Shown here: positions 9,081 through 31,588 of the stretch, piece by piece
Numbering within the stretch: position 1 is the stretch's first letter
Layout: the number at the start of each line of letters is the position of its first letter
From: Pelagibacterium sp.
GTDB taxonomy: Bacteria; Pseudomonadota; Alphaproteobacteria; Rhizobiales; Devosiaceae
Reading direction: 5' to 3'
DNA: 64,000 nucleotides
Assembly: GCA_002723255.1 (NCBI GenBank)
Contig: PBNW01000013.1
Location: 1-64,000 of the forward strand
Translations under genes and position numbers: made by a program
Notes under the pieces: model-generated
What the model was told of the DNA's origin: nothing
Seen by the model: the letters and a program-made list of their open reading frames with translations, nothing else
Database searches by the model: none

Positions 9081-10751
9081 GTGACCGATACGCTCCGCAT
9101 TGCTCTCGCTCAACTGAACCCCAAAGTCGGTGCAATTGCCGAAAACCTCGCCACTGCACGCAGGGCGCTGGCAGAGGCCGAGGCGGCGGGCGCCGACATC
9201 CTGATGTTCACCGAACTCTATCTGACCGGCTATTTCCCAGAGGATTTGCTGTTCAAGCGCCAGTTCGTGACTGAAGCGATGGAAGCTGCGCGGGCCCTGG
9301 CACGCGAAACCAAGGGCCTCAACATCTCCGTGTTGCTGCCAACAATCTGGAGCACCGACGGTAAGCTCTACAACAGCGTTGTTCTGGCCGAGGATGGGGC
9401 GATCATCGACCGCCGGAACAAGGTCGAATTGCCCAATGACGATGTTTTTTATGAAAAGCGCTATTTCACGGCAGGCCAATTGCCGGAGCCGATGACGATC
9501 AGGGGTTTGTCGGTTGGTGTGCCGATCTGCGAGGATGTCTGGCATGAGCCGGTCTGCAAGGCGCTTGCCCAGAGCGGCGCGGAAATCCTGCTCTGCCCCA
9601 ACGGCTCACCTTATTGGCGTAACAAACAGCGGTTGCGGCTCGATCTCGTGCGTCAGCGCGTTGAGGAAACCGGACTGCCGATCCTTTATTCCAACCAGAT
9701 CGGCGGTCAGGACGAACTGGTGTTCGACGGGGCGAGCTTTGGCATCAATGTAGATGGCTCACTCGCCTTTCAGGGCAAGAGTTTCGTGCCCGATATGGTG
9801 ATGTCGGACTGGCGCAAAGGGGAAGGAGGCTGGCATTGCGTTGAGGGACATGTGACCGAACTTGTGCCGGTCAACGAAGCCCCGTGGCACGCCGCAATGC
9901 TCGGTTTGCGCGACTATGTCCATAAGAACGGCTTCAAGTCTGTGGTATTGGGACTGTCGGGCGGCATTGATTCCGCAGTGGTCGCGGCACTGGCCGTCGA
10001 TGCGCTGGGCGCCGAAAACGTTCACTGCCTGATGCTGCCTTATCGCTACACCTCGGAAGCCAGTTTGCGCGACGCCAAGGCGTGCGCGGAAACGCTTGGG
10101 GTGCGCTATGACATCGTGCCGATCGGTGCGCCGGTCGATGCGATCAACGAGAGCCTTGCCGCGGTTTTTGAGGGTCGCGCACCCGATATTACCGAGGAAA
10201 ATCTCCAGTCGCGCATGCGCGGCACCATCCTGATGGCGGTTTCCAACAAGCTCGGTTCGCTGCTGATCACCACGGGCAACAAGTCGGAAATGGCTGTGGG
10301 TTATGCAACGATCTATGGCGATATGAATGGCGACTACAATCCGATCAAGGATATGCCCAAGATGCAGGTCTATGGGCTGGCTGAATGGCGCAATTCCTAT
10401 TATCCCACCGATGTTCGCGGCCCGTCCGGCGTGGTCATTCCGCCCGAAATCATTTCCAAGGCCCCGAGCGCCTAACTGCGACCCGACCAGACCGACCAGG
10501 ATTCGCTGCCGCCATATCCCGTGCTCGACGCGATCATCGAAGCGCTGGTTGAAGATGAGCTTTCTCTGGCCGAAATCGTTGCCAAGGGGTTCGATGCCGA
10601 GTTGGTCAAGCGCATCGAACGGCTGATCTATATCGCCGAGTTCAAGCGTCGCCAGTCCGCGCCTGGCCCCAAGCTTACGCCCAAGGCTTTCGGCATCGGG
10701 CGGAAGTATCCCATCACTTCGGGCTATCGTGACGGGAGTGTCGCCCGATGA
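9081..10751 (+). pseudogene. nadE: NAD+ synthase (glutamine-hydrolysing), interrupted by an in-frame TAA
   Basis: This reading frame encodes a 556-residue glutamine-dependent NAD+ synthase that makes NAD+ from nicotinate adenine dinucleotide, but codon 465 (10473-10475) is TAA. Before the stop lie the nitrilase-type glutaminase domain (FTELYLTGYFPEDL, PICEDVW) and most of the synthetase domain (P-loop LSGGIDSAVV, TTGNKSEMAVGYATIYGD). After it, the frame stays open for 92 codons and carries the conserved tail LRPDQTDQDSLPPY and AFGIGRKYPI, then stops in an ATGA overlap with gltX. Family members read SAELRPDQ here, so the stop fits a single GAA-to-TAA change. A 464-residue product would lack a conserved synthetase loop. 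The start is GTG 9081 with a weak ribosome-binding site. Confidence 0.88.
10473..10475 (+). other. In-frame TAA stop replacing a conserved Glu codon of nadE
   Basis: The local codons read AGC GCC TAA CTG CGA CCC GAC CAG. Translation continues in the same frame with the conserved NadE tail until 10751. The position corresponds to the Glu of the family motif SAELRPDQ. One substitution (G to T) explains it; no frameshift is needed. Confidence 0.9.
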
Positions 10752-30431: not shown

Positions 30432-31588
30432 GATGAAAAGACACCCGGATTTATAAGATTGTGTTCGCCCACATTGCGGATGTCCCGCTCCCCGCAAAGC
30501 GCCATGGTAACGTCGAGTTCCCTGCGGATGATATCGAGCGCCTGTTCGACCCCTGTTTCGCCGCCGGCGCCAAGACCATAGAGCCAGGGGCGTCCAATAT
30601 AGACGCCCTTGGCGCCCAGGCACAGTGCTCGCATGACGTCCTGACCCGAGCGGATGCCACCATCCATATGAACTTCGATTTTGTCTCCCACGGCTTCAAT
30701 GATGCCAGGCAGGGCCGCTATGGACGATGGTGCGCCGTCCAGTTGTCGTCCGCCATGATTGGATACGATGATCGCGTCCGCGCCCGAAGCGGCCGCCATG
30801 CGCGCATCTTCGGCGTCCATGATGCCCTTTAATATCAGCTTCCCGCCCCAGCGCTCCTTGATCCATTCGATATCGGACCAATTGAGCTTGGGGTCGAATT
30901 GCTCGGCCGTCCACGAAGCCAGAGAAGAAACGTCGCCAACATTATCGGCATGGCCCACGATATTGCGGAAGGTATGACGTCGTGTTCTGAGCATCGACAG
31001 GCACCATTGCGGCCGGGAGGCCAATTGCCAGATGGTGTTGAGATTCACACGGGGAGGGGCCGAAAGTCCGTTGCGCGCGTCCTTGTGCCGTTGCCCCAGG
31101 ATTTGCAGATCGAGCGTCAGGACCAGGGCCGAACAATTGGCGGCTTTGGCTCTGTCGATCAGATTATACATGAATTGCCGGTCGCGCATCACATAGAGCT
31201 GGAACCAGAACGGGGCACCGTCGGTAGCCTCTGCAACGTCCTCGATCGAGCAGATGCTCATCGTTGATAAAGTGAACGGTATGCCGAAAGCGCGCGCCAC
31301 TTTGGCGCCGAGAATTTCACCGTCGGGGTGCTGCATACCCCCAAAACCGGTGGGCGCTATGGCGACAGGCATCGCGACGTCTTGCCCGATCATTGTCGAG
31401 GCCAGCGAGCGATTGGTCATGTCGACGGCAACACGCTGGCGAAACTTTATTTTAGCAAAGTCTGCTTCGTTGGCGAAGTAGGTGCTTTGGGTCCACGATC
31501 CGGAATCGGCATAGTCGAAAAACATCCGAGGTACGCGTCGCTTCGCACGTGCCTTCAGCTCTTCAATTGTCTGCGCCGTAAACCCCAT
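30428..31588 (-). CDS. lldD: FMN-dependent alpha-hydroxy-acid dehydrogenase, LldD-like
   Basis: A 386-residue flavoenzyme of the L-lactate dehydrogenase/glycolate oxidase family, probably oxidising L-lactate to pyruvate and passing electrons to quinone. The conserved N-terminus (RRVPRMFFDYADSGSWTQST), the FMN site (APTGFGGMQHPDGE), the catalytic Lys/His region (LILKGIMDAEDARMA ... IVSNHGGRQLDG) and the phosphate-binding MDGGIRSGQDVMRALCLGA are all present. ATG 31588 is preceded by a purine-rich GGGAGAGGCGGGG stretch; GTG/ATG options up to 31609 are less likely. It is translationally coupled to nadC. Confidence 0.88.
   Translation of the reverse strand: MGFTAQTIEELKARAKRRVPRMFFDYADSGSWTQSTYFANEADFAKIKFRQRVAVDMTNRSLASTMIGQDVAMPVAIAPTGFGGMQHPDGEILGAKVARAFGIPFTLSTMSICSIEDVAEATDGAPFWFQLYVMRDRQFMYNLIDRAKAANCSALVLTLDLQILGQRHKDARNGLSAPPRVNLNTIWQLASRPQWCLSMLRTRRHTFRNIVGHADNVGDVSSLASWTAEQFDPKLNWSDIEWIKERWGGKLILKGIMDAEDARMAAASGADAIIVSNHGGRQLDGAPSSIAALPGIIEAVGDKIEVHMDGGIRSGQDVMRALCLGAKGVYIGRPWLYGLGAGGETGVEQALDIIRRELDVTMALCGERDIRNVGEHNLINPGVFSS

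Follow-up and report, generated by a model that had tools for sequence, protein, structure and literature searches.

An in-frame TAA codon in nadE of a Pelagibacterium-like draft genome as a probable base error of the consensus

The gene for glutamine-dependent NAD+ synthase (nadE) is interrupted by a single in-frame TAA codon in the stretch of DNA analyzed here (64,000 nucleotides, referred to below as the window). Together with a TGA codon inside leuS of the same draft genome, this TAA very probably reflects base errors in the draft consensus, because a second normally needed, single-copy gene is cut in the same way with a different stop codon. The nadE stop is most likely not a new biological feature. 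Instead, the consensus of this fragmented draft would be wrong at one base of codon 465, neither stop would be present in the DNA of the cell, and the living organism would carry an intact nadE and make a normal glutamine-dependent NAD+ synthase. Sequencing error was one of several options listed in the initial annotation of the window, and it is the one that gains support from the isolated nonsense codon in leuS.

The window covers the opening 64 kb of contig 13 in draft G000, which comprises 3.02 Mb in 80 contigs and is 84.44% complete and 0.13% contaminated; for the remaining 11 genomes in the genus, completeness is 92-100%, and the lower quality of this draft was counted in favor of a base error. 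The nearest named loci to nadE belong to Pelagibacterium, with 83-85% protein identity, and closer genomes within the same genus reach 94-95%. Judged from these similarities, the source organism appears to be Pelagibacterium-like, from a family that we take to be Devosiaceae.

Table 1. Features of the nadE locus in the window
Feature	Position	Strand	Remarks
nadE, glutamine-dependent NAD+ synthase	9081..10751	+	CN_hydrolase and NAD_synthase domains; 557 codons, one internal stop
nadE head, 464 codons, upstream of the stop	9081..10472	+	Glutaminase domain plus roughly three quarters of the synthetase domain
In-frame TAA, codon 465 of nadE	10473..10475	+	Glu in relatives
nadE tail, 91 sense codons, C-terminus of the synthetase	10476..10748	+	Conserved
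Next ORF, gltX (name from the initial annotation), 442 codons	10748..12076	+	Starts within the ATGA overlap

The description of the locus in the initial annotation held up in every structural point (Table 1). Codon 465 is indeed TAA in the assembled sequence. The reading frame, which begins with GTG at 9081, continues intact beyond this codon through the 91 sense codons of a conserved tail to a TGA at 10749-10751, and the proposed ATGA overlap is found where the ATG of gltX at 10748 overlaps this TGA; the identical four-base overlap with the next ORF occurs in the related genomes G008 and G009. In the NCBIfam model for NAD+ synthase (NF010588), the head matches positions 2-457 and the tail positions 459-544 of 546 (tail E-value 5e-37), while in Pfam NAD_synthase (PF02540, length 242) the corresponding stretches are 4-179 and 181-241. 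Because the model coordinates adjoin across the stop, there is no frame shift and about one position is lost. The N-terminus contains the CN_hydrolase (glutaminase) domain PF00795 (1.6e-28, residues 6-231), but no single open frame holds a complete NAD_synthase domain, as PF02540 is split by the stop; read across it, the domain scores 251 bits with one TAA inside. The truncated product of 464 residues would, as previously proposed, lose part of the synthetase domain, namely PF02540 181-241, and a head lacking the last quarter of that domain would very probably be inactive. When nadE is translated with X at the stop, it aligns through this position with its two best solved relatives, 4f4h and 5kha, each of which carries Glu there. 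The TAA lies outside any homopolymer, which was counted against the base-error reading.

A glutamate at codon 465 had been expected from the initial annotation, and the comparison with close relatives that it proposed bears this out. Every relative locus examined has a Glu codon at the site (109 of 109: GAA in 67, GAG in 41, and GAG again in L031), with the 109 loci made up of 29 from a search of 61 genomes and the best 80 of 581 relatives; some organisms are present twice. GAA is the codon in the three closest relatives. Among the 61 genomes searched, the window's genome has a nadE frame of 466 codons and G036 has no nadE match, while in the 59 others the frames range from 558 to 657 codons. 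When the window was compared with G009, G011 and G008, nadE was, among the rows listed, the sole gene judged to be internally stopped; the other flagged rows were, by eye, frames on the antisense strand or stretches reaching upstream beyond a start codon. One could imagine that the enzyme has become split, with the 464-residue part cooperating with a C-terminal part made by re-initiation, and an in-frame GTG does occur after 15 codons beyond the stop. A restart at this GTG would drop 15 residues that align with 4f4h and 5kha, and none of the 59 other genomes has a nadE split at codon 465, which leaves this arrangement with next to no likelihood.

The conservation of the tail places a limit on the age of the lesion. 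Against G011 and against G009 the nadE tail shows 2 nonsynonymous and 34 synonymous differences (dN 0.010, dS 0.769) and the head has a dN of 0.029-0.030 and a dS of 0.779, the two comparisons being near-identical in their figures and not independent of one another. Measured against these two genomes, the stop is an isolated lesion flanked to the left and right by constrained sequence. The tail is also more constrained than the head in comparison with G008 (dN 0.022 versus 0.055), but not in comparison with the more distant G001, where its dN of 0.098 exceeds the 0.075 of the head. By a simple neutral reckoning, if selection on the tail had lapsed over more than about 5% of the path, nonsynonymous changes above the upper bound of 7.2 would be expected, and a real stop would therefore be younger than about 5% of the path to the two closest relatives. 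Because the tail is constrained against these relatives, the stop would have to be either very young or not real. The first of these, a genuine and very recent nonsense mutation in some or all of the sampled cells (from a lineage that is dying out or a population that is mixed, the intact allele being present elsewhere in it), would fit the single-base change and a tail without decay against the closest relatives, and bacterial genomes commonly contain genuine interruptions (45 of the 73 genes resequenced in the M. smegmatis work discussed below; PMC1852416). It is nevertheless unlikely, as nadE is the sole NAD synthase found and leuS is also cut in the same draft; alleles of this kind should be rare and would not be expected to dominate the consensus twice.

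The evidence that carries the most weight comes from this second gene. leuS is normally indispensable to cells. Its single match over the family cut-off in the draft contains one in-frame TGA (L173:10008-10010; contig C70 of G000, minus strand), with positions 1-74 of TIGR00396 matched before the TGA and 76-841 after it and the frame intact on both sides. All 11 other genomes of the leuS search have TGG at this position. Another normally indispensable gene in the same assembly is thus similarly hit. NAD synthetase is described as essential in M. tuberculosis (PMC10470730), and both nadE and leuS would presumably be indispensable in the source organism. If both were truly cut, UAA and UGA would both have to be suppressed, as the two lesions would otherwise be hard to reconcile with a living cell. 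Below the cut-off, the leuS search also returned three weak hits, in G040, G006 and G003, each with one stop inside the matched stretch, and these seem to be other synthetases whose start is spanned by the match.

A third case was found in an EcoAI-type hsdR gene near a contig end, where a TGA stands at codon 12 of the likely frame (L184:841-843; contig C7 of G000, minus strand). Downstream of the stop, the model is matched from position 8 onward, and the piece upstream is too short for the family scan. The gene is probably cut by the in-frame TGA, with a later start being possible, and hsdR-type genes are often genuinely broken. The odds given to a base error rest on leuS, so they are unchanged by the hsdR case being just probable.

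These cases emerged from a sample of 837 kb of the draft (28%, window included), in which stops with coding sequence in the same frame on both sides were sought. A first scan by codon usage covered 454 kb of the draft and 240 kb from relatives and gave 41 and 13 stops with coding-like flanks, respectively, the nadE stop being one of the 41. From these 41, nine pairs picked by eye were passed through a family scan, and leuS was the sole pair of the nine with one family on both sides. The stops at L171:10975 and in L168 and L163 lay between two different families; those at L171:4246, L166:1419 and in L172 had a family match on one side only, and L161 and L177 had none on either side. Under a strict penalty, a Viterbi scan did not flag any stop, that of nadE included, and the penalty was then relaxed. 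The relaxed scan, which recovered 212 of 400 planted stops and missed about half, returned 10 stops and 17 frame changes in the 837 kb of the draft, 7 stops and 16 frame changes in 480 kb of G009, a relative in a single contig, and no stops and 8 frame changes in 160 kb of G011 and G008. The frame changes within the window, at 30440 and 46325, fall in overlaps of adjacent ORFs.

Among the ten stops in the draft, nadE and leuS are clear and the hsdR-type gene is probable. Three others (in L182, L195 and L198) are followed directly by Met and are junctions between genes, a fourth (L171:1466) sits between two different families and is likewise a gene junction, and the remaining ones (L166:10980 and two in L176) have a family match on one side only. 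None of the seven stops flagged in the 480 kb of G009 was accepted, five having Met directly after the stop and two lacking a family match on either side; a count of zero versus 1.7 expected at the draft's rate gives a P of 0.18 and is not significant alone. If all three cases were errors, the substitution rate would be about 2.8e-4 per base (95% range 0.6e-4 to 8e-4), and nadE and leuS alone would give 1.8e-4 (0.2e-4 to 6.7e-4). The rate implied by the three cases is high, which counts against the base-error reading, as does the yield of two clear cases and one probable case only in 837 kb.

The initial annotation had also raised the possibility of a second NAD+ synthase or of an ochre suppressor. 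The genome search that it called for favored neither, having found only guaA besides nadE and no UUA-anticodon tRNA in a draft that is 84.44% complete. In the search for a synthase, PF02540 was the query; a weak second match to nadE on contig C15 is a nitrilase-type amidase, whose best model, below the cut-off, is NF043013 (deaminated glutathione amidase). A bypass starting from nicotinamide was rejected as well, since the sole PF04095 protein in the draft is a nicotinate phosphoribosyltransferase, and the nicotinate phosphoribosyltransferase route still needs NadE. That nadE is dead and NAD is obtained from a second synthase, from a nicotinamide salvage that bypasses NadE or by uptake is accordingly very improbable, even if a missing gene could sit in a gap of the incomplete draft: in addition to the lack of another NAD_synthase-family gene and of a nicotinamide phosphoribosyltransferase among the genes found, the conservation of the tail speaks against an old loss, and the stop in leuS would be left unexplained.

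The draft has 34 tRNA genes, of which 33 have sense anticodons. The last, a tRNA-like gene on the minus strand of contig C54 (L159:98-172), has a two-letter anticodon call; it has a low score of 42.8 bits and an odd anticodon loop and is left unnamed by ARAGORN. As a UAA suppressor it was dismissed, its anticodon loop holding TGC by eye and not TTA. Trp, Ile, Asn and Cys tRNAs are likewise missing from the 34 genes; the tRNA set of the draft is incomplete, in keeping with the incomplete draft. With perhaps a sixth of the genome lacking from the draft, the absence of a second synthase and of a UUA-anticodon tRNA is not proof. The release factor genes prfB and prfA are both close to full length, being matched over 13-352 of 353 and 8-359 of 361, respectively, and no stops occur inside the matched parts of either.

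These observations bear on the proposal that the stop is real and is read through, either by a suppressor tRNA absent from the draft or by weak termination, yielding some full-length NadE. The constrained tail would be expected under such a mechanism, the draft is incomplete, no Trp tRNA is among the 34, which leaves room for one that reads UGA, and a stop in leuS would be just as tolerable under general readthrough. Against this, two different stop codons would have to be suppressed, no UUA-anticodon tRNA is seen, prfA and prfB are nearly complete and free of stops where matched, no examined relative has a stop at the nadE or the leuS site, and only ten stops were flagged in 837 kb, of which three were accepted and four lie at gene junctions. 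Readthrough of the nadE stop is consequently a very unlikely explanation, and a general readthrough of real UAA and UGA codons in these needed genes, supplying full-length enzymes at a low level, is if anything even less likely. True readthrough, which had also been named in the initial annotation, thus has little in its favor. Should the stops be real after all, they would constitute a remarkable case of tolerated readthrough.

With a base error as the preferred reading, the case serves as a warning. Where a fragmented draft shows a clean stop in a gene that is normally essential, a base error is the first candidate, and a quick way of weighing it is to see whether another essential gene in that assembly carries a like lesion. 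The case also provides a rough error rate for the draft, in which such errors split gene annotations.

Our literature search found nothing for metagenome-assembled genomes on stop codons within essential genes, and none of the papers listed for Pelagibacterium and nadE was, by title, on an interruption of nadE. Precedents for coding sequences interrupted through sequencing errors come from Mycobacterium smegmatis and Vibrio fischeri. In M. smegmatis, 73 interrupted genes were resequenced and 28 proved to be sequencing errors, the other 45 being genuine, and genuine nonsense codons are reported from Vibrio fischeri as well, in a paper that cites 1-100 errors per 100 kb as the range suggested for genome sequences (PMC1852416; PMC2330054). 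As far as these accounts describe them, the interrupted genes of both species resemble nadE in being conserved genes with one apparent lesion and intact flanks. They differ in that the M. smegmatis errors were not miscalls, owing to the design of that search (PMC1852416), and the lesion here is a substitution in the assembled consensus. Despite this mixed precedent an error is favored, because nadE and leuS are not normally dispensable.

Stop readthrough in bacteria, whether suppressed or programmed, involves an in-frame stop with conserved coding sequence beyond it. nadE shares both of these features, but here the stop is absent in relatives, no UUA-reading tRNA is found, and the stop codons differ between the genes. 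The closest likeness is to NadE itself as known from NF010588 and the solved relatives 4f4h, 5kha and 3n05: the domain order, length and sequence are the same, two relatives share the overlap with the next gene, and the difference is the internal TAA at codon 465 of the gene in the window.
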